Shown here in pieces: positions 19,722-35,128 of a stretch of 64,000 nt of DNA. This DNA comes from an uncultured Bacteroidales bacterium. GTDB taxonomy: Bacteria; Bacteroidota; Bacteroidia; Bacteroidales; Muribaculaceae. The DNA lies in contig CACYVC010000009.1 in NCBI GenBank assembly GCA_902777835.1, forward strand, positions 33,877 to 97,876, written 5' to 3'. The notes under the pieces were generated by a model that was given only the letters and a program-made list of their open reading frames with translations, did not search any database and was not told the origin of the DNA. Made by a program: the position numbers and the translations under genes. Positions within the stretch are counted from its first letter, which is position 1; each line of letters opens with the position of its first letter.

Positions 19722-22700
19722 ATGAGTAAACTAAGCAACCTATTGCAACAAGCCGCCGTGATTCGCGACGCTACAGAGGAGCACGAGAACACCGCGGTGA
19801 GAGTCGGCACTATGTTTGTCGACTTCATCCAGAGTTGCCTCGATGTGCTGCCGCCCGAGATAGTGGATGCCACAGGCATCTCGACGAGCACAAGCGAGAC
19901 CAACTTTGTGGTGCGCTATCGCACGGTTGACGACACGGGGGCGAGCGTGAGCAAGAGCATCACCATCCCTGCCGCGTCGAGTGCCAACGCCGGTCTGCTG
20001 TCAACATCGCTGCTGGCACAGATTAACCAGGTCATCACGTCGGTGACTGCCGCCGTGAGCGAGCTGGCCACCGTTAGAGGCATCGCCGAGGGCGCACAGA
20101 CCACAGCCACCCGAGCCGAAGGCAAAGCCGACGCTGCGCAGAGTGCGGCTGACGATGCCGATGTTGCGGCGCAAGCAGCGCAGAGCGCGGCCGACGCGGC
20201 ACAATCAGCAGCCGAGGCAGTAGCCGCCACCGTGGAAGCGATGAAGAAGTACGGCTACAAGTTCATGGGTGTGGCCACGCCGGCCACGGACCCCGGCACA
20301 CCGAGCGAGAACGTGTTCTACCTCGCCACCACCGAGGGCTACTACACCCACTTCCCGACCAACGCGGCAACCGAGGAAGGACCGCTCTACTTCACTATTG
20401 GAGCCGACGAGGTCGCCATCTTGCGCTACACCAAGCCGACCGACGACACGCCAATCGTCACCAACTGGAGCAAGGTGACGCTGAACCTTGCCAAAGGTAC
20501 GGCGATAACCGAAATAAGAACCGCCATTGAGACCCTGCAGAGCAACATCAGCGACCTTGAGGACGGCCTCGCACCTCGCCTGTTCTTCAACGGCAACGTG
20601 CTCACTGGCACCGAGGGCGATAACCTCTCGCTCGCACAGTTCGTGGCATTGACCGCCGGCACCGTTTTCGCCTTTGCCCGCAAGAAAGGTGTTGTGGTGG
20701 CTCTCTCTACCGCTGACGGCTTGAAGAACTACCAGTGGAAAGGCACGACATGGAACAACACCGACGACTGGCGCAACTTCGGCGGCTCGGCTGCCGTGGG
20801 CAACTGCTACAACGTCACCAACGAGGCGAGCGACCTGCTGCCTGCCGGCACGGGTTACTTCACCCTCACCACCGCCATCGCGGCCGTGAAGACCAAAGGT
20901 GTGCAGGGTGTGGGTATGCAGATAACCTTTGCCGTTGGAGAGTCCACATGGAAGACTTACCAGTATGTGGGTGCCGACGTGACCGACACCAATTTTGACC
21001 TCGAGACCAACTGGGTTGACATGGCGGGTATCACCGCAGGCAACGAGGCAGTAATCAACATTCTCGACCTTTGCGGCCCTTGCACGGTTGCCCCTTACTA
21101 CAACCTGCAATATGCCATCGCCGCGCTTGTTGACAAGCAGAATGCGACAGGTATCACCTACGCAAAGAGTGGCCTTGTCATCACTTACCCGATAGGCGAG
21201 AACCTTTGGGAGGCCAAGCAGTTCAACGGCATCGTCGAGAACTTCGGCGAGACCGGCCTGTGGAAAGACTTCGGCGGTGGCGGCAGTGCCGATGTAGAGA
21301 CCAGCGACACCCCTGTCAGTGGTGGCGAGGACGCGTTCAGCACAGGCGGCGCTTATACCCACCTCGCAAAGGGTGTGGAGATGCTGGAGGATAGCGAGGC
21401 ACAGCAGCGTGAGGATTACGTTGAGGGCTACAACTACTTCTATCTCATCAACGAGAACGGAGACCGCATCGGCAACGTGTGGCGCATACCTAAAGGCGGT
21501 GGCGGCTCATCGACGACCAAAGTGTTCAGCGTGAACTTCCAACAATCGCCGTTCTATGCCGCCGTTGGTGGTAATTTCACCTTGCGTGCGTCAATCCGCA
21601 GCGCGACCGAGGAAGGTGGCGTGACAACTACCGACAGCATCGAGTCAATCCAAATCGTGGACCGCGACACTGCCCAGGTGTTGTTCAGCGACACCACGAC
21701 ACACGCATCGAGCGAGAGCCGCACCGACTACTCGTTCACCTTTGACCTGTCCTCGTTCTTCACCTCGGCAAGCACCCGTCGCCTGCAACTGATTGCTGTG
21801 GACGGTGCCGGAGACAGGGCATCACGCACCATCAACGTGGTGGCCGTGGACGTGACTTGCCAGTGCGTGCAGGTGCTCAACTACACCAATGCGAGTGTGG
21901 TGTTCACTACCGACACCGTCAAGTCGTTGCAGATGTATCAGTTCCCGAACAACCAGGGCACGATTACCGCCGTCGTTGACATCTTCGTTAACGGCGAGTG
22001 GGTGAACATCGGCACGGCACAGGTCACAGACAGTTATGCCCACAACATCACCGTCAACCCGACCGCCTTGGGCTTGACGCACGGCGCATACCCCATCCGT
22101 ATGTACGGCACCGACAACGCCAGCAGCGTGCGAGGCAACACCGTCTATTCGACCATCATGGTTGTTGACACGGCGAGTTCGCTGCCTATCGTCGCCATGC
22201 GCTACAACGATGCCAACAATGGCGAGGTGCGGCTCTACGATACCGTGGCTCTTGAAGTCACCGCCTACACGCCCGACGCACAGGAGAGCGAGGTGGTAGT
22301 TACCGAGAACGGGGCCACCATCGCCACGCTGAATGTGAACCGCAGCGCCGTGGAGACCGTGAACCGCCAAATTAGCGGCGTGGAGCAAGGCACGACACTT
22401 GCCTACCAAGCCACGAGCGGAGCCAGCGCGAGCGGCACAATCAGCCTCACCGTCAACGGCAGCGTGATTGATGCGGCACTGACCACCGGCGCGATATGTG
22501 CATTCGACTTCGCCAACCGCACCAACAGCGAGGCAGGAAACCACGAAATCGTGGACGGCAACTACGAGATAGCCGTGAAAGGCTCTAACTGGTCGTCCAA
22601 CGGCTTCAAGAACTATCTCGGCGGCAACGCCCTTGCCGTGAAAGAGAACGTGACGGCAGAGTTGAACCTCGCTCCGTTCGCCACTGTAGATGTCGCCAGC

Positions 22701-25700
22701 ACAGGTTTCGCCCTGCTGTTCCAGTTTGCCTCGAACAACATCGCCGACAACGATGCCCACCTCATGGAGTGCTACGACGAGAACAACGGAGCGGGCTTCT
22801 ACATCACCGGTCAGGCTATCGGCATCAAGTGCGGCAGCAAGGTCGAGGAGAGAACCTACCCCAACGGCGAGCGCATCACCGTTGGCATCCTCGTTGAGCC
22901 ATCGAGCAAGTATGTGGAGTTCAAAGGCACGCGTTACTCGCTGATCAAGTTGTTCATCAACGGCGAGGAGAGTGCCTGTGTCGAATACACCTCCAATAAC
23001 GACCTATTGCAGGACAGTACCATCAAGTTCAGCGGCATCGAGGGTGACTTCTACCTCTACTACCTGATTGCGTGGATGCAGTACATCGCCTGGATGCTGC
23101 AGTTCTTCAACTACCTCGTCAAGTTGACCGACACCTCGGCGATGGTGACGGAGAATACCTTCGAGGACGTGTGGAGCGGAAACACCTCCAACGGCCCCAC
23201 GGCTGCAAAGCTCACCGCAAAGGGCATGCCGTACTTGATTGAGGCACCGTTCAACGGCAGTGACATCACCGCCCTGGACAACACCACCTCGACGAGCCGC
23301 AACAACTATATCACGCTGACCTACCGCGACCCGAGCCGTCCGTGGCGCAACTTCGTCGCTACCGATGTGCGCCGGCGCAACCAGGGTACGACCTCGGCGA
23401 AGCGTCCCATCAAGAACGCCCGTTACTACCTCGCCAAGAAGAACGGCTCGACCTACGACAAGGCGACCAAGACCGGCGGCACGGTTGTCACGCCCGAGCT
23501 GTCGAGAACCGAGTTCATTGCCGCCTACGGCACCGAGCACATCGCGCTATACGACGAGGCTGTGGCACTGTTCGCCAAGAATAAGGTGCGTGTGAGAGAG
23601 GACAGCATTCCTGTTGACCTCATCACCGTCAAGGTGGACTACTCGGACAGCACCAACGCCAACGACTGCGGCGCGTGCAACATGATGAACACCGTCTATC
23701 GCCGTCTGGGAGCGCAGTACATGACCCCTGCGCAACGCTACTACGATGGCACCTACGATAACGGCGATGTCCATTTGACGGGGTTGCAGTTGAACCACTC
23801 GACGGCCAACCACCCGATTGCCATGTACCGCGACTTCAGCGGCACCGGGACGAGCCTCAAGTTCTACGCCAAAGGCAACTGGAAGGAGGACAAGAACGAG
23901 CAGATGGCTCTCGGCTTCAAGGACACGCCGGGCTACAACAAGGGCTGCCTCAACTACGGCGACTTCGTTGAGTTCTTCGGCACGTCGAGCGAGACGCTGG
24001 CGCAAGCCGTGACCCGCTTCCTCTCTGCAAGCGTCACGAAGGACACGAGTAAGGTTTACCTTATCTCGCAGTACTGCGGCTCGTCCTACAAGTTCTACCG
24101 CTATCGCAATGGCGCGTGGACCGACACCACTGGCACAATGCGGCAGGTGAACGGCGCATGGGTCATCACTGGCGACGTACTGAACCCAGTGGACGGCTTC
24201 GAGTTGCTTGCCTACCAGGGAATGTGCTGGTGGCAGGGCGTTGCGAGCGTGAGCGACTTCATGGCTCCCAGCACCAACATCTCCTCTTGGGTGCAGAAAC
24301 TCATCGATAAGGAGGGCAGCGGCGTGTCCGGCACCACGTTCCCCGCATGGACCAACTACTTCGAGTGCATGATTGACGATGACCAGCTGCAGGCCGACCT
24401 CGCCATGGGGCGCAAGGCTCCCTACTGGCTCTACCGCCTGCTCAAGTTCTGCAACGACTGCGACTACTCGCAGGGTGCGGACCTCAGCGGCGACTGGCAC
24501 GACAATCTCTACAAGTACGTCAAGCCCTATGCGCTGTATGTTTACAACGCGTTCACCGACTATCTCGCCGCCGTTGACCAGCAGGCCAAGAACATGCAGC
24601 CCATGTTCTTCCTCGACGAGGGAGGCTCGGTAGAGGGAGGTGTGTACAAGTACAACGGCGTGGCCACCGAGGATTGTGCCGTGCGCATGTACCCCAACAA
24701 GGTGTACGATGCCGACACCCTGCTCGGCAAGGACAACGCCGGTGGCGCGACCGTCGATCCCGAAGTTGACCCCAACAAGCCGAGCGACCCGACAACTGGC
24801 TACAACAACCCCTACGCCGGTTGGGGCTCCGTGTTGTGGAACAACATCTACCGCCAGCCAACCGTCAAGGTCGATGCGAACAACGAGACCGACATGAACA
24901 CCATCGTGGCGGCCATGCGCAACCTGCAAGCCACCGTTGACGGTGTTTCTCTGTCGCCGTTCTCGCCCGAGGGCTGCAAGCACTTCTTCCTCGACAACAT
25001 CTGCAAGCGTTGGCAGAAGACTGTCAGCTCGTATGACGGCGAGAGCAAGTACATCGACAGCACCGAGAACATCGACACAACGGTAGAGGACAACACCACC
25101 TACTTCTACGCGCTGCACGGCTTGCGCCTCACCTCGCTGCCGTCGTTCATCGACCGCCGTTTCCGTGTCCGTGACGGCTTCTACCGCACCGGATTGTTCT
25201 TCAGCGGTGTATGGTCGGCGCGTATCAACGGCAACGTGAGCACGTCAGGCATCACTATCAAGGCCGCCAAGACGGGCTACTTCGGTGTCGGTAGCGACAA
25301 CTCTGGCAACCTGCGTGAGAGCGTGTATCTTGAGGCCGGTGAGAGCCACCGCTTCACGCTGTTCGACCACACCGAGGGCTCATTGCTCTACATCTACCAG
25401 GCGAACCGCATCAGGGAGATAGACCTCAGCGAGATTTCCATTTCGCAGAGCGAGATTGTGTCGTTCGGTGCTTTCACCCTCGCAGAGAAGATAATCCTCG
25501 GTGGAGCTGACCACGTCAACATGGGCATCGGCTCTTACGCCCCCATGACCGAACCGCCGCTGGGCTCGCTGCCGTTCCTCAAGGAGTTGAACATCGTCAA
25601 CACCCTTGCCACGGCCATCGACGCGTCGCAATGTCCTCGTCTGGAGACTTTGGACGCGACCGGTTCACCGCTTGCGAGCCTCGCCCTTGCCGAGACTTCG

Positions 25701-27824
25701 CCTGTGAGTGTGCTGACCCTGCCAGCGACCATCTCTCGCCTGACGTTGGTCAACCTGCCCAACCTGTCGTATGAGAGCGGTTGCCTCACTTTCGAGGGAA
25801 TGAGCGCACTCACGCAGATACGCATCGACGGCTGTCCGCTGCTTGATGGGGCGAAACTGCTCAACGATGCAGTGACCGCAGGCGCATCGCTGTCGCGCAT
25901 CCGTCTTGCGGGCATTGACGTGAACGGAAAGAGCGACATCCTCGTTGCCCTGCGCGACATGGGTGTGCGTGGACTTGACGCAAACGGCGATGCTATTGCT
26001 GAGAGCAACCAATGTTCCGGCTTGACTGGTGTGTGGACGTGCAGCGATGTGATAGAGGCCACCTTGCTCGCCAGCCTGCAAGCCTACTTCCCGTTGCTGA
26101 CCATCTACAACGCCCAGTACACGGTCGTTCAGTTGGATGACAGCAAGACCGCGCCTGCCGAGGACAGCGTCATCAACCTTGACAACGGCACTTATGCCAA
26201 CGACGGCAAGATGGGCTACGTCGCCAGCGGCCATATAACCAAGATTAAGGCAATGATGCACGTCTATAAGTCTGTGTACGACGAGAGTGCACAGAAGATG
26301 AAGTGCTACCAACTTGACGATGACGACATCGAACTGCTTGCCAACGGCGAGTCCTTTGACAGGACCGATGCAGGTGGCGAGGGCTACGATGTGATGCTCG
26401 GCCTGCCTCATTTTTGGTACAAGGGAGTGAACGACGCGCTCAACAGGAAGAAATACCTCGTACTGTCGAGCGAGACCGGCACACCCCGAAGTACTGCATC
26501 CGCCATCAGCCGTGTGTCGCTTGCTGCAACCATTGACGGGGCGGCCAACCCTGCTTTGGTCGCCGAGTACGTGGCCGTGTATATGTCGGCGTTCAATGTC
26601 GGTGACGTGTTCTCTTCCGCCAACCTGGGCCAGTCGTCCACCACGAAAGTCTATCAGATGAGCGTGGTGGGCATGAAGCAGGTGCGCTGGCCGACCATGA
26701 GCAGTTCGACCACCGGCATCCTGTTCCTCGACAAGGACGGCAAGGTCATCAGCAAGTTCGCGCCGTCGATCGCCGACAGCATGACCGACTTCCTCGCCGG
26801 TGACTACGTGTTCATGGACGTGCCTGCCAACGCCGTGAGGTTCGTGTTCACCGTGCCCATCACGTTCGGCAACACCACCACACTCGACGAGAGCGAGGCT
26901 ATCGCCGTCAGCAGTACGGCGATTGAGGCTATCGAGCCCGACTGGGTGGAGCATGAGTTTGAACTCATCGGCACCTACAAGGCTTACAAAGACGCGCTGC
27001 AACGTCTGCGCAGTGTGAGCGGTGTGGCACCCACCCGAGGCTCGGGAACGAGCACCACATCAAGTTACTGGCAATACGACGCCAACGGCAATGTCGTTTC
27101 GGCCTTGCCCGACAGCAGCCGCACGTTCAACATGACGTACCTCGACTTCCGCAACCTCTCGCGCTGCCGTGGAGCGGGATACCAGCTTGTGGACTACGAG
27201 ATGCACAAGTGCGTTGACCTGCTGTTCCTCGCCTGCTTCGGCACCCGCAACAGCCAGTCGCTGTTCGGCAACGGACAGGGCAACGGCACGCAGACCGGCG
27301 GCAGCGACATCTACACGACCAACATCGAGCGTGACGCGTCGCCGCTGCGTGAGGCCTCGCGGCCCCGTTTCTTCGGCTTGGAGGACTGGTGGGGCAACTG
27401 CTGGGAGTTTATGGACTTCGTGGCCATCAATGTCAAGAGTTACGCCGAGTACTACAAGAACAAGTGCGAGGTTCCTGCCGGCAGCGATACGGACAGGGTT
27501 TGGCACATCCGCATGCCCGACGGCACCGAGCGCGCCGTCAAGGGCGACCCGAACAGCAACTCAGGCGAGATTGTCCGCTTGCGCTGGGGGCGCTTCTGCG
27601 ATGTGGTGCCGAGCAAGTTGCACACCAACAGCAGCTACAACCAGTACTACTGCGACATGATGGAAATGCAGAACTCTACTGGTCGCGTCGTGGCGCGGTC
27701 CGGGCACTACAACAATGCGTACTGCGGCTTCGTCTTCGTGAGCGCGAACAGCGCTTCCTCGAGCTCGAACGGCAGCGGCGGCGCGCGGCTTGCCTTCAGG
27801 GGCGCAATCGAAATCGTCGAGTAG
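19722..27824 (+). CDS. Giant DGR-diversified receptor-binding/tail fibre protein
   Basis: A 2700-residue virion protein expected to bind the host surface. Visible regions are an N-terminal attachment part (1-105), an Ala-rich coiled coil (108-175), repeated beta modules with Gly linkers (180-620), Ig-like beta domains (about 620-915), a LamG-like sandwich (about 920-1120), a CotH-kinase-like region (about 1200-1615, with NQGTTS), a leucine-rich-repeat-like stretch (about 1890-2090), and a C-terminal C-type-lectin/FGE-like fold (about 2410-2700) containing FFGLEDWWGNCWEFMD. The last 47 residues include the variable repeat (residues 2654-2693), in the ligand-facing part of this fold. It stands alone under P3 and is followed by the DGR template and reverse transcriptase. 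The inner domain calls are by resemblance; the DGR target assignment is firm. Confidence 0.88.
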   Translation: MSKLSNLLQQAAVIRDATEEHENTAVRVGTMFVDFIQSCLDVLPPEIVDATGISTSTSETNFVVRYRTVDDTGASVSKSITIPAASSANAGLLSTSLLAQINQVITSVTAAVSELATVRGIAEGAQTTATRAEGKADAAQSAADDADVAAQAAQSAADAAQSAAEAVAATVEAMKKYGYKFMGVATPATDPGTPSENVFYLATTEGYYTHFPTNAATEEGPLYFTIGADEVAILRYTKPTDDTPIVTNWSKVTLNLAKGTAITEIRTAIETLQSNISDLEDGLAPRLFFNGNVLTGTEGDNLSLAQFVALTAGTVFAFARKKGVVVALSTADGLKNYQWKGTTWNNTDDWRNFGGSAAVGNCYNVTNEASDLLPAGTGYFTLTTAIAAVKTKGVQGVGMQITFAVGESTWKTYQYVGADVTDTNFDLETNWVDMAGITAGNEAVINILDLCGPCTVAPYYNLQYAIAALVDKQNATGITYAKSGLVITYPIGENLWEAKQFNGIVENFGETGLWKDFGGGGSADVETSDTPVSGGEDAFSTGGAYTHLAKGVEMLEDSEAQQREDYVEGYNYFYLINENGDRIGNVWRIPKGGGGSSTTKVFSVNFQQSPFYAAVGGNFTLRASIRSATEEGGVTTTDSIESIQIVDRDTAQVLFSDTTTHASSESRTDYSFTFDLSSFFTSASTRRLQLIAVDGAGDRASRTINVVAVDVTCQCVQVLNYTNASVVFTTDTVKSLQMYQFPNNQGTITAVVDIFVNGEWVNIGTAQVTDSYAHNITVNPTALGLTHGAYPIRMYGTDNASSVRGNTVYSTIMVVDTASSLPIVAMRYNDANNGEVRLYDTVALEVTAYTPDAQESEVVVTENGATIATLNVNRSAVETVNRQISGVEQGTTLAYQATSGASASGTISLTVNGSVIDAALTTGAICAFDFANRTNSEAGNHEIVDGNYEIAVKGSNWSSNGFKNYLGGNALAVKENVTAELNLAPFATVDVASTGFALLFQFASNNIADNDAHLMECYDENNGAGFYITGQAIGIKCGSKVEERTYPNGERITVGILVEPSSKYVEFKGTRYSLIKLFINGEESACVEYTSNNDLLQDSTIKFSGIEGDFYLYYLIAWMQYIAWMLQFFNYLVKLTDTSAMVTENTFEDVWSGNTSNGPTAAKLTAKGMPYLIEAPFNGSDITALDNTTSTSRNNYITLTYRDPSRPWRNFVATDVRRRNQGTTSAKRPIKNARYYLAKKNGSTYDKATKTGGTVVTPELSRTEFIAAYGTEHIALYDEAVALFAKNKVRVREDSIPVDLITVKVDYSDSTNANDCGACNMMNTVYRRLGAQYMTPAQRYYDGTYDNGDVHLTGLQLNHSTANHPIAMYRDFSGTGTSLKFYAKGNWKEDKNEQMALGFKDTPGYNKGCLNYGDFVEFFGTSSETLAQAVTRFLSASVTKDTSKVYLISQYCGSSYKFYRYRNGAWTDTTGTMRQVNGAWVITGDVLNPVDGFELLAYQGMCWWQGVASVSDFMAPSTNISSWVQKLIDKEGSGVSGTTFPAWTNYFECMIDDDQLQADLAMGRKAPYWLYRLLKFCNDCDYSQGADLSGDWHDNLYKYVKPYALYVYNAFTDYLAAVDQQAKNMQPMFFLDEGGSVEGGVYKYNGVATEDCAVRMYPNKVYDADTLLGKDNAGGATVDPEVDPNKPSDPTTGYNNPYAGWGSVLWNNIYRQPTVKVDANNETDMNTIVAAMRNLQATVDGVSLSPFSPEGCKHFFLDNICKRWQKTVSSYDGESKYIDSTENIDTTVEDNTTYFYALHGLRLTSLPSFIDRRFRVRDGFYRTGLFFSGVWSARINGNVSTSGITIKAAKTGYFGVGSDNSGNLRESVYLEAGESHRFTLFDHTEGSLLYIYQANRIREIDLSEISISQSEIVSFGAFTLAEKIILGGADHVNMGIGSYAPMTEPPLGSLPFLKELNIVNTLATAIDASQCPRLETLDATGSPLASLALAETSPVSVLTLPATISRLTLVNLPNLSYESGCLTFEGMSALTQIRIDGCPLLDGAKLLNDAVTAGASLSRIRLAGIDVNGKSDILVALRDMGVRGLDANGDAIAESNQCSGLTGVWTCSDVIEATLLASLQAYFPLLTIYNAQYTVVQLDDSKTAPAEDSVINLDNGTYANDGKMGYVASGHITKIKAMMHVYKSVYDESAQKMKCYQLDDDDIELLANGESFDRTDAGGEGYDVMLGLPHFWYKGVNDALNRKKYLVLSSETGTPRSTASAISRVSLAATIDGAANPALVAEYVAVYMSAFNVGDVFSSANLGQSSTTKVYQMSVVGMKQVRWPTMSSSTTGILFLDKDGKVISKFAPSIADSMTDFLAGDYVFMDVPANAVRFVFTVPITFGNTTTLDESEAIAVSSTAIEAIEPDWVEHEFELIGTYKAYKDALQRLRSVSGVAPTRGSGTSTTSSYWQYDANGNVVSALPDSSRTFNMTYLDFRNLSRCRGAGYQLVDYEMHKCVDLLFLACFGTRNSQSLFGNGQGNGTQTGGSDIYTTNIERDASPLREASRPRFFGLEDWWGNCWEFMDFVAINVKSYAEYYKNKCEVPAGSDTDRVWHIRMPDGTERAVKGDPNSNSGEIVRLRWGRFCDVVPSKLHTNSSYNQYYCDMMEMQNSTGRVVARSGHYNNAYCGFVFVSANSASSSSNGSGGARLAFRGAIEIVE
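27681..27800 (+). repeat. DGR variable repeat (VR)
   Basis: These 120 bp at the 3' end of the fibre gene align without gaps to 28007-28126. Over the first 110 positions there are 12 differences, all at adenines of the template (eight to G, three to T, one to C), while the 83 other positions are identical. The last ten positions add three more adenine changes and one T-to-C, so homology fades there. The VR starts exactly at codon 2654 and ends eight codons (stop included) before the gene ends. A GC-only stretch, GGCGCGCGG, near the 3' end fits the initiation-of-homing segment. Confidence 0.95.
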
Positions 27825-27860
27825 CGAGCGTGAGCGTCGGCGAAAAAATCGGCAAAGCGT

Positions 27861-27895
27861 AGAGTGAGAGTCGCCGTAAGGCGGCTGCTCACTCT
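27861..27895 (+). other. Hairpin downstream of the variable repeat
   Basis: AGAGTGAG (27861-27868) pairs with CTCACTCT (27888-27895), and AGTCGCC pairs with GGCGGCT inside, closing a GTAA tetraloop with one bulged G. The stem begins 60 bp after the VR and 36 bp after the stop codon. In the Bordetella phage DGR a hairpin with a GRNA loop 3' of VR aids homing, so this may be the counterpart. It may also be a terminator, but no U tract follows. Confidence 0.6.
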
Positions 27896-27967
27896 CCCTT
27901 TAGCCGCGAAGCGGCTTCGATTTTGAAAATTTTTTGTTCCAGGTGGCACAAATCGCAAAAAATGCCG

Positions 27968-27975
27968 TACCTTTG
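27968..27975 (+). promoter_or_regulatory. Possible promoter of the template RNA/RT unit
   Basis: TACCTTTG fits the -7 consensus and lies 31 bp before the template repeat. No TTTG is found at the usual distance upstream, so the call is tentative. Confidence 0.4.
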
Positions 27976-28006
27976 TCGCCGAAATCAAGGCGGACGACCT
28001 CTTTGT

Positions 28007-28126
28007 GGTCGCGTCGTGGCGCGGTCCGGGAACAACAACAATGCGAACTACGGCTTCGTCTACGTGAACGCGAACAACGCTTCCTCGAACTCGAACAGCA
28101 ACAACGGCGCGCGGCTTAATTTCAAG
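28007..28126 (+). repeat. DGR template repeat (TR)
   Basis: The invariant donor copy of the variable repeat, lying in the non-coding gap between the fibre gene and the reverse transcriptase. Read in the VR frame it carries eleven AAC codons plus AAT, TAC and AGC codons, the usual design that lets adenine mutagenesis reach many amino acids without creating stop codons. It has 31 adenines. Its RNA is the expected substrate of the reverse transcriptase. Confidence 0.95.
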
Positions 28127-28336
28127 GTACACCGCCCATGTTTCAGCGTGGGCAGGTCGCAAATCGTTCCTCTACGTCGGCGACGTGTCGCCATGACGCA
28201 AGGGCGAGGGGTCTGAGCCTCGGCAATCCTTTGTGGAGGAAGTTAATTTCCTCCACGAGAAGACCGAAACAAAAGAAACGTGGCAGAATTGCCGGTAGCG
28301 GAAGCGACAGTGACGAGCCACACCACCCTGAAGGCA
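28127..28336 (+). ncRNA. Structured spacer between template repeat and RT gene
   Basis: This stretch has no convincing reading frame but has perfect hairpins GGCGAC-GT-GTCGCC (28179-28192) and GTGGAGGAA-GTTAAT-TTCCTCCAC (28233-28256). In characterised DGRs the RNA downstream of TR is needed to prime cDNA synthesis and bind the RT, so this is the likely equivalent. The second hairpin also lies before the RT start and could affect translation. Confidence 0.55.
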
Positions 28337-29635
28337 ATGAAACGATATGGGCACTTGATACCGTTAATCATCGAGCAGGGAAACATGAGCACCAGCTTTG
28401 ATGATGTGCTCGGCGACTTGAAGAACGAGAGCCGCAAGGCCACTCTGCGGGCAAGGAAACAGGACATCATCGACCGATTAGCAGCCGCCATCCGTGACGG
28501 CTCTTTTCGTATCACCACCGTCCATGAGATGGAAGTCACCGACGGCCCGAAGCGGCGTGTCGTGCAGGCACCGCCCGTCATCCAGCGCATAGGCTGCCAC
28601 GCCATCATGAACATCGTTGACCAAGTGTGCTACAAGTCAATGATACCCACCAGCGCGGCGAGCATCAAGGGGCGAGGTATGCACTACCTGCACAAGATTG
28701 TGAGCGACGACCTGCGGCAGCACCCCGGCGAGACCACCTACTTCTACAAGTGCGACATCAAGAAGTTCTACGAGAGCATTGACCAAGACATAATGTATGA
28801 GTGTGTCTGTCGTTATATTAAAGACAAGACATTGCTGCCGATACTCGAGAACTTTGTGCGCGTCATGCCGTCAGGTTTGGCGATAGGTCTGCGCAGTTCG
28901 CAGTGCTTCGGCAACATTCTCCTTGACAGATTGGACCACTTCATGAAAGAAGTGGTGAAAGTGCGTTATTACTACCGCTACTGCGACGACATAGTGATGC
29001 TGCACCACGACAAGAAGACTCTTTGGCTGTGGCGTGACATCCTCGTTGACCAACTCGCGTTGCTCGGCTTGTCAATCAAAGACAACGAGGTGGTGCGTCC
29101 TGTCGCCGACGGGCTGGACTTTCTCGGCTTCATTCACTACGGCACCCATTCGCTGCTGCGCAAGCGAGTGAAGAAGCGGTTCGCCCGGCACATGGCGAAA
29201 GTCAAGTCACGCAAGCGGCGTGTCGCCCTCATGGGCTCGTTCAAGGGCATGGCGGTGCACGGAGACTGCAATCATTTATATTACACAATAACAGGACAGC
29301 ACATGAAAAAGTTCAGCGAGATGGGTGTGACCTACACCCCTGCCGACGGGAAGAAACGTTTCCCCGGCAAAATGATGCGCCTTGGCGCTATAGTAAACAA
29401 AACCATTGAAGTCCACGACTACGAGAGCGGGATTAAGACGAGCCAGGGTGAAGACCGCTATGTTGTCAGTTTCTTCGACCCTGCAACAAAAGAGTGGGGC
29501 AAGTTCTTCACAGCGTCCGAGGAGATGAAAAACATTCTCGATCAGATCAGCGACATCGAGGACGGCTTTCCTTTTGAGACAACAATCATCAGCGAGGTGT
29601 TCGACGGAAACAAAGTCAAGTACAAGTTCAGTTAA
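28337..29635 (+). CDS. DGR reverse transcriptase with C-terminal extension
   Basis: Copies the template RNA with adenine-specific errors for retrohoming into the fibre gene. The ATG at 28337 (432 residues) is preferred over a GTG at 28280, because the MKRYGHLIPLI opening resembles the beginning of the Bordetella phage Brt protein. Palm motifs are visible: KCDIKKFYESID with Asp140, the DGR-type GLRSSQ at 184-189 in place of the group II intron motif, and the catalytic YCDD at 215-218. FLGF and basic KRVKKRFARH segments follow. The last 115 or so residues (from about 318) exceed the Brt length and look like a separate small beta domain (TSQGEDRYVVSFFD). No Avd-like gene lies nearby. Confidence 0.93.
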   Translation: MKRYGHLIPLIIEQGNMSTSFDDVLGDLKNESRKATLRARKQDIIDRLAAAIRDGSFRITTVHEMEVTDGPKRRVVQAPPVIQRIGCHAIMNIVDQVCYKSMIPTSAASIKGRGMHYLHKIVSDDLRQHPGETTYFYKCDIKKFYESIDQDIMYECVCRYIKDKTLLPILENFVRVMPSGLAIGLRSSQCFGNILLDRLDHFMKEVVKVRYYYRYCDDIVMLHHDKKTLWLWRDILVDQLALLGLSIKDNEVVRPVADGLDFLGFIHYGTHSLLRKRVKKRFARHMAKVKSRKRRVALMGSFKGMAVHGDCNHLYYTITGQHMKKFSEMGVTYTPADGKKRFPGKMMRLGAIVNKTIEVHDYESGIKTSQGEDRYVVSFFDPATKEWGKFFTASEEMKNILDQISDIEDGFPFETTIISEVFDGNKVKYKFS

Positions 29636-29655
29636 CTAAGTTCTTCAATAAAGGC

Positions 29656-29690
29656 AGCGCACTCTATGAATGGAGTGCGCTGTCTTTTTA
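29656..29690 (+). terminator. Terminator of the DGR unit, merged with promoter P4
   Basis: AGCGCACTC (29656-29664) pairs perfectly with GAGTGCGCT (29673-29681). The following GTCTTTTTAT acts as U tract and is at the same time the -33 element of P4. Confidence 0.85.
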
Positions 29691-29716
29691 TATTACTTCA
29701 CGCTCAACTAACTTTG
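29682..29716 (+). promoter_or_regulatory. Late phage promoter P4 (lysis and tail tip)
   Basis: GTCTTTTT at 29682-29689 and TAACTTTG at 29709-29716 are 19 bp apart, like P1-P3. It lies 17 bp before the next start codon. Confidence 0.75.
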
Positions 29717-29733
29717 CAAAAAAAAAGAACATA

Positions 29734-30219
29734 ATGGACAAAATCTACGGAGCCGTTGCGCGTTTTGACGGCATTCAGCAAATAGGACGCACCACATTTG
29801 AAGTGTTCTATGGTTTTGGTGAAGACGATAATGGTAAGTTCCAGTATCGACAAACACTCCCTTATAAGCCTCCTTTTGAATTCGTTAAGGACATGATTTT
29901 AACACAGGTGAATGCTAACACCCAGGAGAAAATCACGTCTGGCTTCATGTGGAAAGATAAACTCGTGTGGCTTAGTGAAGCTAACCAGTTGAACTATGCC
30001 CGTGACTTCGCTGTAGCTTACTACTGCGAAAAGAATGGTGAGCAGTATTCTTTACCTACATACAAATTTGGTACAGACGAGACCCCCATTTTCTACACTT
30101 TTGAAAGCTTTGAGGAATTCAAGCAATTCAGCAAAGCTTGGGCGCAACACATCAGCGATACCGTGCGCGATGGTTGGTATGAAAAAGCAAATATTAATTG
30201 GAATAATTATCAAATCTGA
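29734..30219 (+). CDS. Phage protein of unknown function, possibly tail-fibre accessory
   Basis: A 161-residue protein rich in aromatic residues. Segments WLSEANQLNYARDFAVAYY (about 80-98) and FGTDETPIFYTFESFEEFKQF (about 111-131) recall accessory domains found next to phage tail fibres, but I cannot name the family. It is the first gene under P4 and precedes the lysis cassette. It does not look like the four-helix Avd protein. Confidence 0.45.
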   Translation: MDKIYGAVARFDGIQQIGRTTFEVFYGFGEDDNGKFQYRQTLPYKPPFEFVKDMILTQVNANTQEKITSGFMWKDKLVWLSEANQLNYARDFAVAYYCEKNGEQYSLPTYKFGTDETPIFYTFESFEEFKQFSKAWAQHISDTVRDGWYEKANINWNNYQI

Positions 30220-30225
30220 TTAGTT

Positions 30226-30510
30226 ATGAGACCTAATAAAAAAGACAGCGTTGCGACATGGAGTGCGGTGGGCATGCTCGCTTTCGGCATAGCAATCACC
30301 ACCGCAGGTTTTATCATCCCGCCTTCAGGAGAGATTCACGACTCGGTGCTGTGGGTGCTCGGTCAGGCTCTGCTCTACAGCGGCAGCATCTTCGGCATCA
30401 CACTATACACCAAGCGCAAACTGGGCGAGATTGAAGAAACCATTGCCAACCGTTTACCCAAAAACAAAGCCATCACAAATGAAGACTATCAAGAGGGGCA
30501 GCAGGGGTGA
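30226..30510 (+). CDS. Probable holin
   Basis: A 94-residue inner-membrane protein with two hydrophobic helices (about 12-31 and 40-60) and a charged C-terminal tail. The endolysin starts inside its 3' end. Size, topology and place before an amidase and a spanin support a holin that opens the cytoplasmic membrane at lysis. Holins share little sequence, so the call rests on context. Confidence 0.6.
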   Translation: MRPNKKDSVATWSAVGMLAFGIAITTAGFIIPPSGEIHDSVLWVLGQALLYSGSIFGITLYTKRKLGEIEETIANRLPKNKAITNEDYQEGQQG

Positions 30511-31276
30511 CGAGGTCATCGCCCTGCAGCAAGCGTTGCATATCACAACGGATGGCGACTTCGGTACAAAGACCGAGGCTGCCGTGATAGCGTTCCAAAA
30601 GAGCCACAATCTCACACCCGACGGAATTGTCGGCTCCATGACATGGGCGGCACTGGGCGTGACCGACAGCAGGTGTGTTGATCCATCGGTCATCTACGCA
30701 CCACTGTCAGGCTGCATCACTCGCACGCCTAACCGCTCTATCAAATACCTGGCCATTCACTACACAGCCGGCGGCAGCAGCGCACCAGGCCGCGCCAAGG
30801 GAATGAAGGCTTCGTGGGAGGCGACAAAGCGTGCCTCGGCCGACTTCGGCGTGGATGACCGCGACATGGTGCAGTTCAACCCCGATCTGCGCAACTATCG
30901 CTGCTGGAGCGTGGGTGATGCCAAGAAACCTGCCGGTGGCGGTGCGCAGCTCTACGGCATAGCCACCAACAGCAACACCATAAGCATCGAGATCTGCTCT
31001 AACCTCAAGGCCGGCTACAGCCACCAGGCAGTGAACCACGATGGGTGGTACTTCACAGAGGCAACGCTTGCCAATGCCGTGCGACTGGCGAAGATCCTGA
31101 TGCGCAAGTTCAACATTCCCATTGAGCGTGTGGTGCGCCACTACGACATTTCGGGCAAGATATGCCCGGGTGTTGTGGGCTGGAACAACTATGTACGCTA
31201 CGACAAGAATGGCAACCGTATCGGCAAAAAGAACGACAGCACCGCATGGATAGCTTTCAAAAAGAGATTGTTATGA
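30479..31276 (+). CDS. Endolysin: peptidoglycan-binding domain plus N-acetylmuramoyl-L-alanine amidase
   Basis: A 265-residue lysis enzyme cutting the bond between muramic acid and the stem peptide. The start is taken at ATG 30479, so the gene overlaps the holin by 32 bp; a start 16 codons earlier gives an unlikely tail. Residues of about 5-62 form a PG_binding_1 domain (GDEVIALQQAL to DGIVGSMTWAAL). Residues of about 85-245 form an amidase_2 domain with zinc-ligand candidates in LAIHYTAGG and VVRHYDISGKICPG. No signal peptide is seen, so export depends on the holin. Confidence 0.85.
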   Translation: MKTIKRGSRGDEVIALQQALHITTDGDFGTKTEAAVIAFQKSHNLTPDGIVGSMTWAALGVTDSRCVDPSVIYAPLSGCITRTPNRSIKYLAIHYTAGGSSAPGRAKGMKASWEATKRASADFGVDDRDMVQFNPDLRNYRCWSVGDAKKPAGGGAQLYGIATNSNTISIEICSNLKAGYSHQAVNHDGWYFTEATLANAVRLAKILMRKFNIPIERVVRHYDISGKICPGVVGWNNYVRYDKNGNRIGKKNDSTAWIAFKKRLL

Positions 31277-31695
31277 ACAAGATATTACATATTCTCTGTC
31301 TGGTTCTGTTGTGCGGCTGCCATGGCACCAAGACTCTCACCGAGAGGGTCGAGGTGCCGGTGGTCGTCACACAGGAACACACGATCGAGAGCGTGCGCAT
31401 CGACCATGTGCGTGACACGCTGGTGCAGCGCGACAGCATCTACCACTTTGTGCAGGGCGACACAGTGCGCATAGAGCGGTGGCACTACCTGCAAGGCATG
31501 ACCAATGTGGTGCGTGTTGACACCGTACACGTCACCGACAGCGTGCAGGTGCCGGTGGTCACCACGCAGACAATAGAGAGAGAGGTGGAGGTGCCGCGCC
31601 CTTTATCATGGGCGCAGAAGACGCTGATGATCATCGGCTGTGTGTCGATGATAGCGGTGCTTCTGCTCATAGCTTACAAAACCAGAAAGCGATGA
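31273..31695 (+). CDS. Unimolecular spanin (lipoprotein with C-terminal membrane helix)
   Basis: The start is the ATGA overlap at 31273, giving 140 residues. The N-terminus is a lipoprotein signal with lipobox LLCGC at about 13-17. The C-terminus has a transmembrane helix (LMIIGCVSMIAVLLLIAYK) followed by basic residues. Between them lies a Val/Thr/Arg-rich beta segment of about 90 residues that could span the periplasm. This topology (outer-membrane lipid anchor plus inner-membrane helix in one chain) is that of u-spanins, which fuse the two membranes in the last step of lysis. It follows holin and endolysin directly. The topology is read from sequence; the activity is inferred. Confidence 0.75.
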   Translation: MNKILHILCLVLLCGCHGTKTLTERVEVPVVVTQEHTIESVRIDHVRDTLVQRDSIYHFVQGDTVRIERWHYLQGMTNVVRVDTVHVTDSVQVPVVTTQTIEREVEVPRPLSWAQKTLMIIGCVSMIAVLLLIAYKTRKR

Positions 31696-33752
31696 TTGAA
31701 CTTTTCCTTGACAACAAGCCCGCTGTGCTGCGTGAGAATGTGGCCATCAAACTCACGCGTGAGAACGTCTATTTCAACAAGACAGGCAGCTACACCTACG
31801 ACATTGAGTTACCGATGCAGTGCGCCGAGAACCGTGCCATTTTCGGCAGCATCAACAGGGTTGACACAGTGACCGAATTCCGTGAGTTGCACGCCGTGCT
31901 GCGTGTCGATAACAAGGTGCTGCTTGATGGCAAGGCGGTCATCAACCAAGTCACCGACTCGGCGGTCAGGGTGCAGCTGCTGGGCGGCAACAGCGAGATG
32001 AACTTCTACACAAAAGGTGCAGAGCTTTATGTTGACGAACTCGACCTCGGCGACTGGATGCACGAATTGTCATATCAGCCCGAGCCGCAGCCGGCCGAGA
32101 AAGGCACGGCGTTCTATCGTGCCGTGCTTGACTGGTGGGAGTGCGTGGACATCCGCTTTCTCAATAAGCCGGACGGCCAGGATAAGTCCAAAGCACAGAA
32201 CGCCCTTGAATGGTGGCAAAAGAGATGGTGGGCTTATGACCATTCACAAGGTTATGATGCCTATGACAATAGAGGCGTAGCATTCCCCGTCATCAATGTT
32301 AACAGTTCTTGGAACAGTTACTGCGACAGCGGGCTGCTTTGCAACGAGATTGTGATGCGTATGCATGGGCGCGACGGCAATGGGTACGGATATTATTTCC
32401 CGGAATACCGTCTTGAATGGGAAAACCAGGAAGAGAAATCTGACGGCACTCCGCAAGTGTGCCCATCATACATGCCGATGCTCTGCCGCACGATCCGCAA
32501 AGTGCTGTCCGCTGTCGGCTATGAGATAGACCTTGAAGGCCTTAGGAGGTTATACACTGACAACACTTTATTCAGGCGCATTTTCATCGTCACGGCCAAC
32601 AACCGTGTGGACATCGCAAAGGCTTTGCCTCACTGGACGGTGAACGAGTTCCTGACGCAGGTCGAGAGATTCCTGGGCATCGTTGTCGAGGTTGACGAGA
32701 TAACCAAGTCCTGCACGCTGGTGAACCACCAGACATGGTGGAGCGACACACCGCTTCCCATCGAAGATATTGTTGATGAATACACGTCAGAAGTGGAGAA
32801 AGAAGACACCAAAGATGTGAGCAACGGCAACATCGGGTTTAGCATGGAGGACAGCGAATATCACCTTTCGGAGGACATCCTTGGGGCTGCCACTATAGAT
32901 AATCGCTTCACAACTTTCGAACAGATGCAGGCATATCTGCGCAGTGGCGCTTCGGCAGACGACAAAAACAAGCTGTTCAATGTTCAAGGGCATCAGTTTA
33001 TTCTTGCCACCGTCAAGGACACCAACGGCAATGTCACCGAATACTACTTCAAAGAGGTCAACCAGTTCGGTGCCCTCATGCGGCAGCCCGACAAAAAGGA
33101 TATTGATGTTGAACTGAAGATTGTGCCGGCCACCACAATCATGCAGAATGTGCCATTTGTTATTACATCGTCATACACGCAGAATGGCAAGACTTACTAC
33201 AGTGAACTGAAGGTTGCCGAGGTGCCGATGCCGATACTGGCCATCGAAGGCCCTGCTGATGTCGGCGAGAAGATCCTGGTGCGCGCTGCCGATACCGTCA
33301 AGACCGACCTTGAGTCACTCATCTCGGGTGAGACTACGGTTGACAGCGCATCTGAAGTCGATAAAATGTATGTGGCCTACGTGCCCGAATCGATGACAGC
33401 CATTGCCACCGATGACTTGAGCTGCATCGGCGACTACCCGGTGGTGCAGCCATGCTCGGCTTACGAAGTCAAGGCCAATGCCTATGGCAACAAACATATC
33501 AGTGCGCATAATTTCTTGACACTGCAGCAACTGCAAGACAAAGAGACTATCGGCAACACGAGTTTCGCCGATGGCACTGTCATCGACACCACCGTTAAAT
33601 ATTGCATCAAGTTTATCTCCAATGAGGTGCTGAAGCCTACGAGGGCTTTTCTTATTCATGGCCAGCGTTTCGCTTGCGAGAAACTTGAATACAACATCAC
33701 GGCAAAAGGCGTGTCGCCATTGGTGACCGGCTATTTCTATAAGCTGGACTAA
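31692..33752 (+). CDS. Phage tail-tip/distal tail protein
   Basis: The start is taken at ATG 31692, overlapping the spanin gene by four bases, giving 686 residues. The N-terminal 120 residues (YTYDIELPMQCAENRAIFGSI and DGKAVINQVTDSAVRVQLLGG) resemble baseplate or distal-tail proteins of Bacteroides phages. The middle has Trp-rich sequence (about 145-215). The C-terminal 250 residues are beta-rich. It probably forms the tail tip to which the giant fibre attaches; that link is inference. Its stop codon overlaps the convergent integrase stop. Confidence 0.55.
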   Translation: MIELFLDNKPAVLRENVAIKLTRENVYFNKTGSYTYDIELPMQCAENRAIFGSINRVDTVTEFRELHAVLRVDNKVLLDGKAVINQVTDSAVRVQLLGGNSEMNFYTKGAELYVDELDLGDWMHELSYQPEPQPAEKGTAFYRAVLDWWECVDIRFLNKPDGQDKSKAQNALEWWQKRWWAYDHSQGYDAYDNRGVAFPVINVNSSWNSYCDSGLLCNEIVMRMHGRDGNGYGYYFPEYRLEWENQEEKSDGTPQVCPSYMPMLCRTIRKVLSAVGYEIDLEGLRRLYTDNTLFRRIFIVTANNRVDIAKALPHWTVNEFLTQVERFLGIVVEVDEITKSCTLVNHQTWWSDTPLPIEDIVDEYTSEVEKEDTKDVSNGNIGFSMEDSEYHLSEDILGAATIDNRFTTFEQMQAYLRSGASADDKNKLFNVQGHQFILATVKDTNGNVTEYYFKEVNQFGALMRQPDKKDIDVELKIVPATTIMQNVPFVITSSYTQNGKTYYSELKVAEVPMPILAIEGPADVGEKILVRAADTVKTDLESLISGETTVDSASEVDKMYVAYVPESMTAIATDDLSCIGDYPVVQPCSAYEVKANAYGNKHISAHNFLTLQQLQDKETIGNTSFADGTVIDTTVKYCIKFISNEVLKPTRAFLIHGQRFACEKLEYNITAKGVSPLVTGYFYKLD

Positions 33753-34906
33753 AGATTGCCCTTGAAATTCTTGGTCTCCTCATGCACGGGCGCGTCACGC
33801 CCTTGCAGATACTTGTTGGTGGTCGCCACATCGGTATGGCGTGCTTGGTCTCTGGCAATGACAATGCCCTCTGCATTGGCGAGGTCACGCAAACCGCTGT
33901 CCTTCAAACTGTAGAACTGATAGCAGTCGGCCCATTTCAGCCCTTTACGCACGAGCGTGTTCCACTGGCGGCGGAACATCTCGCTGTCGCTGCGTGTCGC
34001 TGATGGGCGCGACACCTTCGGGCCAAACAGGTAATAATCGTTGGGATATTTGAAAACGCCAAGGTCTATCATAAACATGATGATCTTGGCGTTCAAGCCT
34101 ACCTTGCCATCGTGCTTATTCTTCGACACCTCCGCACTGATGAACACCGACTGCTCTTTGACGTTGATGTCGGCGAGCTTCACATGAGTCAGCTCCTCGG
34201 GGCGGATAAAGGTGTAATACTCCATCATGCAGGCAAGGTAGAAATAAGGGTGTGCTTCACGCAGGTGCTGCTCCAGCTCGTGCAGCATCTGCGCCGTCAA
34301 AGGCTGACGCTTCTTGCCGGTCTCGGCAATGGTCTTGATTTTCTCGACGGGGTTGGTCGTGAGATACTGCTTCTCGATGAAGAATGTCGCCAGCGAGGCA
34401 CACCACTGGCGATAGTTGTTGCGAGTGCGGGCGTTTGTCTCACGATCCAAAAATATATAGTCGAGAAAATCGCTGACAAATGCCGTGTCGAACTGATAGA
34501 CATAACGTATCGGCAACAGGCGGCTGGCATTGTATTTGCGGAAGATGTTCAGCCGCGACGTGTATGCCTTGCGGGTCTTGTACTTCGGCATTCTTTCAAC
34601 GTATGCCTCATATTTTTCAAGGGCATCCTCCAATAGAGTGTAGCTTCGGTTGGTCTCGGCGTTGATCCATGGCGACCAACCCGACCGCAAAAGTTTGGTC
34701 AGGCTCTCGATCATCTCGTTGGCGCGTTTGCGGCGCTCTGTGATTTTTACGATGTTGTCAAGGTGGAACTTCTTTCGACGCATCGTGTCGGTGGCAGGGT
34801 CGTAGGCATAGAAGTCAACGTACCACTTCGGACCGGTGTGAAGTTTGGGGAACGTGAACTGAAGTACCTCGCTGAGCGAGTTGAGTTTTTTTCGTGATGC
34901 ACACAT
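33749..34906 (-). CDS. Tyrosine-family phage integrase
   Basis: A 385-residue site-specific recombinase. The N-terminal 110 residues include a helical arm-binding part, then a SAM-like core-binding domain (about 115-215) and a C-terminal catalytic domain. Visible catalytic residues are the first Arg in FIRPEELTHV, a Lys in the following beta hairpin, the ARH motif and the nucleophile Tyr in TTNKYLQG. In place of H-x-x-R the protein reads YSLKDSGLR, a variant common in Bacteroidetes integrases. It is the outermost prophage gene beside a tRNA gene, as expected for tRNA-site integration. Confidence 0.88.
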   Translation of the reverse strand: MCASRKKLNSLSEVLQFTFPKLHTGPKWYVDFYAYDPATDTMRRKKFHLDNIVKITERRKRANEMIESLTKLLRSGWSPWINAETNRSYTLLEDALEKYEAYVERMPKYKTRKAYTSRLNIFRKYNASRLLPIRYVYQFDTAFVSDFLDYIFLDRETNARTRNNYRQWCASLATFFIEKQYLTTNPVEKIKTIAETGKKRQPLTAQMLHELEQHLREAHPYFYLACMMEYYTFIRPEELTHVKLADINVKEQSVFISAEVSKNKHDGKVGLNAKIIMFMIDLGVFKYPNDYYLFGPKVSRPSATRSDSEMFRRQWNTLVRKGLKWADCYQFYSLKDSGLRDLANAEGIVIARDQARHTDVATTNKYLQGRDAPVHEETKNFKGNL

Positions 34907-34998
34907 TTTTTTTACATTCTTTGGCGTGAAGAATGCAAATGGTGGAACATTCGATTTTTTGCAACCGTCTATATAGCGTCTATGGTTTTCTAACCAAT

Positions 34999-35035
34999 CA
35001 AGGGTAACTCGTTGCGGTGCAACTTGTTACCCTTG
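34999..35035. repeat. Perfect hairpin between integrase and tRNA
   Basis: CAAGGGTAAC (34999-35008) and GTTACCCTTG (35026-35035) are exact inverted repeats, with GTTGC/GCAAC nested inside. It lies four bases from the 3' end of the tRNA, in the zone of the phage attachment site. It may be the tRNA terminator or an integrase-related site. Confidence 0.7.
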
Positions 35036-35038
35036 TTT

Positions 35039-35128
35039 TGGCGGAGAGGACAAGATTCGAACTTGCGGTAGAGTTACCCCTACGGCAGTTTAGCAAACTG
35101 CTGGTTTCAGCCACTCACCCACCTCTCC
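35039..35128 (-). tRNA. tRNA-Ser (anticodon GCU), probable prophage attachment site
   Basis: On the minus strand the acceptor arms GGAGAGG and CCTCTCC, discriminator G and encoded CCA, a T arm GCAAG-TTCGAAT-CTTGT, an anticodon stem GCAGT/ACTGC with loop TTGCTAA (GCU) and a long variable arm GTAG/CTAC are all present. Length is 90 nt. Its 3' end faces the prophage integrase, so the att core is expected in the 3' half of this gene, with the partner copy beyond the left edge of the window. Confidence 0.95.

Follow-up and report, generated by a model that had tools for sequence, protein, structure and literature searches.

The diversity-generating retroelement (DGR) of Bordetella phage BPP-1 is described in the literature as working by adenine mutagenesis. 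It targets the C-terminus of a tail protein, carries its template repeat (TR) between this target and the reverse transcriptase (RT), has a structured RNA between TR and RT and, according to the passages of PMC3240598 at hand, needs a stem-loop 3' of its variable repeat (VR). For the hankyphage (Bacteroides phage p00), passages of PMC6199706 report identical TRs accompanied by different VRs, and passages of PMC12135933 report adenine-targeted diversity in cultures. Here we describe a DGR in a stretch of 64,000 nucleotides ("the window") from an uncultured Bacteroidales bacterium of the Muribaculaceae (GCA_902777835.1, contig CACYVC010000009.1, here C9, positions 33,877 to 97,876); positions below are those of the window, and features lie on the + strand unless stated otherwise. 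We have little doubt that this DGR is a functional one, carried by a temperate phage integrated at a tRNA-Ser gene. Since the combination of one TR with different VRs as well as variation in culture have already been reported for the hankyphage, the finding is real and ordinary in kind: a hankyphage-related DGR of a gut bacterium, carried by another kind of temperate phage.

The two repeats, a VR at 27680-27793 and a TR at 28006-28119, align without gaps at an offset of 326, and similarity of the VR to the TR fades at around 27801. A preliminary description of this DNA had counted changes at 12 of the 27 template adenines but at none of the 83 remaining bases between 27681 and 27790, comprising 8 A-to-G, 3 A-to-T and 1 A-to-C substitutions, and our alignment reproduced these values exactly (Fisher p = 5e-9). 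Over the whole VR, 14 of 29 template adenines but none of the 85 other bases differ, and over 27681-27800 the respective counts are 15/31 and 1/89, the sole non-adenine change being a T-to-C substitution at 27794 near the 3' boundary of the VR. A DNA search of the whole host assembly with the TR region returned only the TR and the VR, so that no second VR was detected. A 97-codon frame over the TR on the same strand (27923-28216) was rejected as a gene; it begins with TTG and contains the TR itself. At its 3' end, the VR has a GC-rich invariant segment (27780-27801) that is, by analogy to BPP-1, a candidate for the initiation of mutagenic homing (IMH) element. It is followed by a stem-loop (27861-27895; 15-bp stem with one bulged base and a GTAA loop), a candidate target-recognition hairpin or cruciform that is also found in two close relatives introduced below; the fold of 27825-27940 has z = -3.5, and 0 of 200 shuffles were equally stable.

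The preliminary description had inferred that the system is active and had proposed a comparison of related prophages for identical TRs with different VRs. We ran this comparison on three loci: the window, a locus from IMG/VR (L004; 97.4% identical to the window over 7.4 kb) and one from a metagenome-assembled genome (MAG) (L084; 95.8% over 9.5 kb). Their 114-bp TRs are identical (0/114 differences), and their VRs differ pairwise at 16/27, 18/29 and 18/27 adenine columns versus 0/84, 0/85 and 0/84 other columns. The VR differences among the three loci end at the repeat boundaries, and the flanks of the three loci differ pairwise at only 4, 7 and 7 of 672-673 positions. Identical TRs next to differing VRs in three such close relatives support, at the level of sequence, a DGR that has recently been working. 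Phages often exchange the ends of their tail fibers, and the VR differences among the three relatives could in principle stem from recombination of existing fiber alleles instead of recent retrohoming. We give this explanation very little credence, given that the changes are confined to the repeat and stand opposite TR adenines between nearly unchanged flanks, and that a DGR would still be required to create the alleles being exchanged. The sample for this test of activity is limited to three loci because an exact search of the viral collection with the TR returned the contig of L004 again and nothing else. The VR of L004 (L004:5400-5543) is one codon short compared to the TR, and homing or copying can therefore also alter VR length.

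In a wider survey, an adenine-specific TR/VR pair was found in 61 of 86 related loci with a scan that required, per 60 bases, 3 or more mismatches at adenines and no more than 1 elsewhere, and in 27 of 28 more distant loci (L118 counts among both the 28 and the 86). Across 62 loci including the window, 935/1954 adenines and 114/5493 other bases differ, though this excess is partly built in because the scan itself demanded adenine mismatches and limited all others. Matches based on template thymines were mirrors of adenine pairs only. A further DGR of the same clade, whose TR is different, lies on a second contig (L086) of the MAG that contains L084.

As the preliminary description had proposed, the target of the DGR is the C-terminus of a giant prophage fiber. 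The VR lies in frame within the final ~50 codons of an open reading frame (ORF; 19722-27824; 2700 codons) that matches phrog_14959 (2232 bits) and, over its C-terminus, the tail-protein family phrog_5302; a tape-measure gene lies upstream. Read in the frame of the fiber, the TR has 16 mutable (i.e., adenine-containing) codons, none of which can yield a stop from randomised adenines, and some 10^17 protein variants are possible. The VR domain has no Pfam match, and the top fold match of its structural model (mean predicted local distance difference test score, pLDDT, 74.9) is TaqVP, the variable protein of a Thermus aquaticus DGR (PDB 5vf4; E 2.5e-7), at only 14-15% identity, followed by formylglycine-generating enzymes (FGE) and then by Mtd. 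On this model, the variable domain at the fiber C-terminus is C-type-lectin-like. We infer that the fiber tip binds a host receptor. For the hankyphage, its describers proposed binding to mucus (passages of PMC6199706), and a diversified tip that recognizes mucus or another surface instead of a bacterial receptor is also conceivable here. We consider this rather unlikely, since, by analogy to Mtd, receptor binding would be expected to reside in the C-terminal domain of such a giant tail protein.

The RT gene (28337-29635; 432 amino acids from its probable start) is intact, matches Pfam RVT_1 and a PHROG reverse transcriptase family, and encodes both the GLRSSQ and the YCDD motif on which its earlier assignment to the DGR type had been based. 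This assignment was confirmed by a search of the PDB with an RT profile (38 relatives), which found the BPP-1 RT as best match (8ub7_A, E 2e-42; next solved protein 5e-20), and by an AlphaFold2 model (mean pLDDT 87.8) for which fold matches 1-5 are all BPP-1 RT entries (E 2e-20). This RT is the one match to the Pfam RT family in the host assembly. Translation probably starts at ATG 28337 and not at GTG 28280, because the latter lies inside the structured RNA described below and because the consensus of the aligned RT relatives starts with the methionine of ATG 28337.

Unlike the RT of BPP-1, which ends ~116 amino acids past the YxDD motif and has no C-terminal domain, the RT of the window extends ~218 amino acids past it. 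The PDB match of the RT profile stops at profile position 320, followed by a disordered link and then by a C-terminal domain of ~90 residues (approximately residues 342-432; 29360-29632) that is visible in the AlphaFold2 model and matches phrog_19665, a family of unknown function found in 21/21 aligned members. Searches for its fold returned nothing below E 0.026 among PDB profiles and nothing below E 0.0058 for any member in Pfam. The predicted strand order is b-b-b-a-b-b, and "OB-like" as a label refers only to this order, since the fold search was run with the complete RT and RT entries dominated its results.

Between TR and RT, where BPP-1 encodes the Rfam family Phage_DGR, the window matches RT-3 (RF03068; 28162-28321, 46.4 bits at a gathering score of 40.5). 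RT-3 was present in 39/39 scanned relatives of the RT clade (14/14, 7/7, 10/10 and 8/8), a set that includes several near-duplicates and one locus fetched through an RT-3 search (L138). Among 17 distant DGR loci, RT-3 was found in none, the family RT-17 occupied the same place in 4 (L061:5916-6010, L079:5915-6010, L083:5910-5992 and L118:9932-10018), and 13 had no Rfam match there; phage records L145-L147 had no Rfam match either. Searches for RT-3 that were independent of the RT covered 101 genomes from the genus, where each of the 9 matches adjoins an RT relative, and gave 3 new ones in 393 genomes of the order, again all adjoining an RT relative and with a TR/VR pair in 2 of the 3. In a sample of 395 genomes from the phylum, the window's own match was the only one. 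It is thus likely that RT-3 functions as the spacer RNA of DGRs, and the same probably applies to RT-17. Our literature search found no link between RT-3 and DGRs in passages on RT-3/RF03068, which treat its structure, and an earlier notice in the 2017 survey of 224 candidate RNAs is possible.

The RNA family and the length of the RT go together: at least 215 amino acids follow the YxDD motif in 39/39 RT-3 loci, whereas 16/17 RTs of loci without RT-3 have fewer than 180 (the exception, L059, has 199). This association is a trait of the clade and not independent evidence of joint function because the loci were gathered by similarity. A 3' hairpin whose internal loop reads GGUA/GAA and which might be shared by the spacers was retained as a lead only and was not found in the window, L004, L084, or BPP-1; a rough script (score of at least 8) detected it in 17/49 clade loci versus 43/2940 shuffles and in 6/22 distant loci versus 11/1320. 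By eye, the window seems to contain a GGUA/GACA variant of this internal loop at 28262-28321.

Several observations weigh against a functional DGR of this type. The evidence for this phage consists of genome sequences. Of the 86 related loci, 25 are without a TR/VR pair, several of them cut by contig ends and others unexplained, and a looser scan of these 25 recovered short partial pairs in just 2. Thermodynamically, the fold of 27980-28300 is unremarkable (z -1.1; 16/100 shuffles equally stable), while the RT-3 match is weak beside the 147 bits scored by the hankyphage and has broken pairs in its 3' hairpin. The TM-score of the fiber model against TaqVP is just 0.44 (by query length). For the accessory protein Avd, neither the bAvd profile, which is narrow, nor the IVP profile (PF05635) matched anything on the prophage contig C9, and none of the 187 frames in 26001-35060 matched BPP-1 Avd (best E 1.7).

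An RT-3 score among the weakest of 40 matches (counting the window's own), together with evidence that consists of genome sequences, would fit a decayed DGR, i.e., a VR that was diversified in the past by a system whose RT or RNA is now defunct in this prophage. However, the RT is intact and 99% and 94% identical to those of L004 and L084, respectively. These two loci have the same TR and even slightly lower RNA scores (45.2), yet their VRs differ from that of the window and from each other. The window is therefore low but not lowest in RT-3 score, with L023 (43.6) and L047 (43.3) also below it, and we regard decay as highly improbable.

The preliminary description had also called the DGR complete, which stands for all parts but Avd. 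The bAvd profile recognizes BPP-1 only (1/50 records); FP_Brigit escaped it although an Avd is named in that record. On the host chromosome, the bAvd profile had 3 matches, 1 of which exceeded the cut-off, and PF05635 had 6, of which 4 did so. All of these lie outside contig C9; the bAvd matches were rejected as Avd candidates and read as ordinary IVP proteins because IVP scores are far higher at the three shared places. L148, L149 and L150 are host-chromosome genes for four-helix bundles with IVP and weak bAvd matches, distant from the prophage. In the hankyphage, a small ORF near the RT is described as Avd-like in size and charge (passages of PMC6199706), and a figure of PMC12135933 carries an Avd label according to passages of that paper. 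Downstream of the RT, the window encodes a 161-amino-acid ORF (29734-30219; phrog_19239) that is related to the ORFs following the RT in the hankyphage (29%, E 7e-20) and in Bacteroides phage BS-TP4 (37%, E 6e-36), with no observed link to DGR function. As a tentative idea, which we find somewhat less probable than its opposite, the RT-fused C-terminal domain with its OB-like strand order may have replaced Avd in this clade and may form a priming complex with RT-3 RNA. If true, RT-3, RT-17, and Phage_DGR would represent versions of a single functional RNA, the spacer of DGRs, although Phage_DGR is the only one of the three whose Rfam name refers to DGRs.

The DGR-type RT, the TR/VR differences limited to adenines, the stem-loop 3' of the VR, the spacer RNA and a target domain resembling the variable proteins of DGRs together uphold the earlier interpretation as an adenine-mutagenesis DGR, from which we infer how transcript, priming, and homing would be connected. 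A transcript would start just upstream of the TR and comprise the TR, the spacer RNA of the RT-3 family, and the mRNA for the RT. This enzyme would bind the spacer RNA, begin complementary DNA (cDNA) synthesis near the 3' end of the TR, and misread template adenines. The mutated cDNA would then replace the VR at the 3' end of the fiber gene, helped by the downstream stem-loop and by the invariant GC-rich segment at the 3' end of the VR, and the outcome would be a C-type-lectin-like fiber tip with up to ~10^17 amino acid variants and no stop codons. A possible start signal is TACCTTTG (27968-27975), 38 nt before the TR, which matches TAnnTTTG, a motif that we take to be the -7 element of Bacteroidota promoters. 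This motif occurs at -75 to -15 of the TR in 24/51 distinct loci compared to 237/11450 control windows. After the RT, a terminator-like hairpin of 17 pairs precedes a T-rich tail (29650-29687); the region has 5 terminator-like sites in total compared to a shuffle mean of 2.7, a modest excess.

The left 35 kb of the window are part of an integrated temperate phage of ~43 kb, in agreement with the prophage location given in the preliminary description. A tyrosine integrase gene (33749-34906, - strand; Pfam Phage_integrase) adjoins a tRNA-Ser gene (35039-35128, - strand), and an exact 18-bp attachment-site repeat (35038-35055) that overlaps the 3' end of this tRNA gene recurs beyond the left edge of the window at a distance of 43,177 bp (C9, 25737-25754), from which the extent of the prophage follows. 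An amidase endolysin with Amidase_2 and PG_binding_1 domains (Pfam) is encoded at 30431-31276. With the hankyphage, the phage shares an RT that is 48% identical over 96% of the query including the C-terminal domain, the same-strand order of a fiber gene with C-terminal VR, TR, RT and a related ORF, and RT-3 RNA 3' of the TR, though with a far lower score in the window. The full-length similarity of the RTs is likewise seen in an alignment of 37 members. In contrast, the hankyphage is transposable (passages of PMC12135933), while the integrase at tRNA-Ser and the attachment-site repeat set our phage apart from the Mu-like, transposable lifestyle that characterizes the hankyphage genus. The nearest RTs in the phage collection are those of Bacteroides phages BS-TP4 (51%) and BKO1-TP3 (49%). 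BS-TP4 likewise has RT-3 RNA and a TR/VR pair but differs by a gene pair annotated as RelE/XRE between fiber and TR (L131:6956-7616) that the window lacks. L016, L017 and L039 have a long VR-TR spacing of 954, similar to BS-TP4.

With the DGR of this prophage, a strategy already known is confirmed for a group of hosts that has received little study. The parts most worth following up are the assignment of RT-3 (and probably RT-17) to DGRs, which provides a sequence handle for the discovery of these elements, and the clade-specific RT domain, which points to a clade where the accessory work may fall to a domain fused to the RT instead of Avd.

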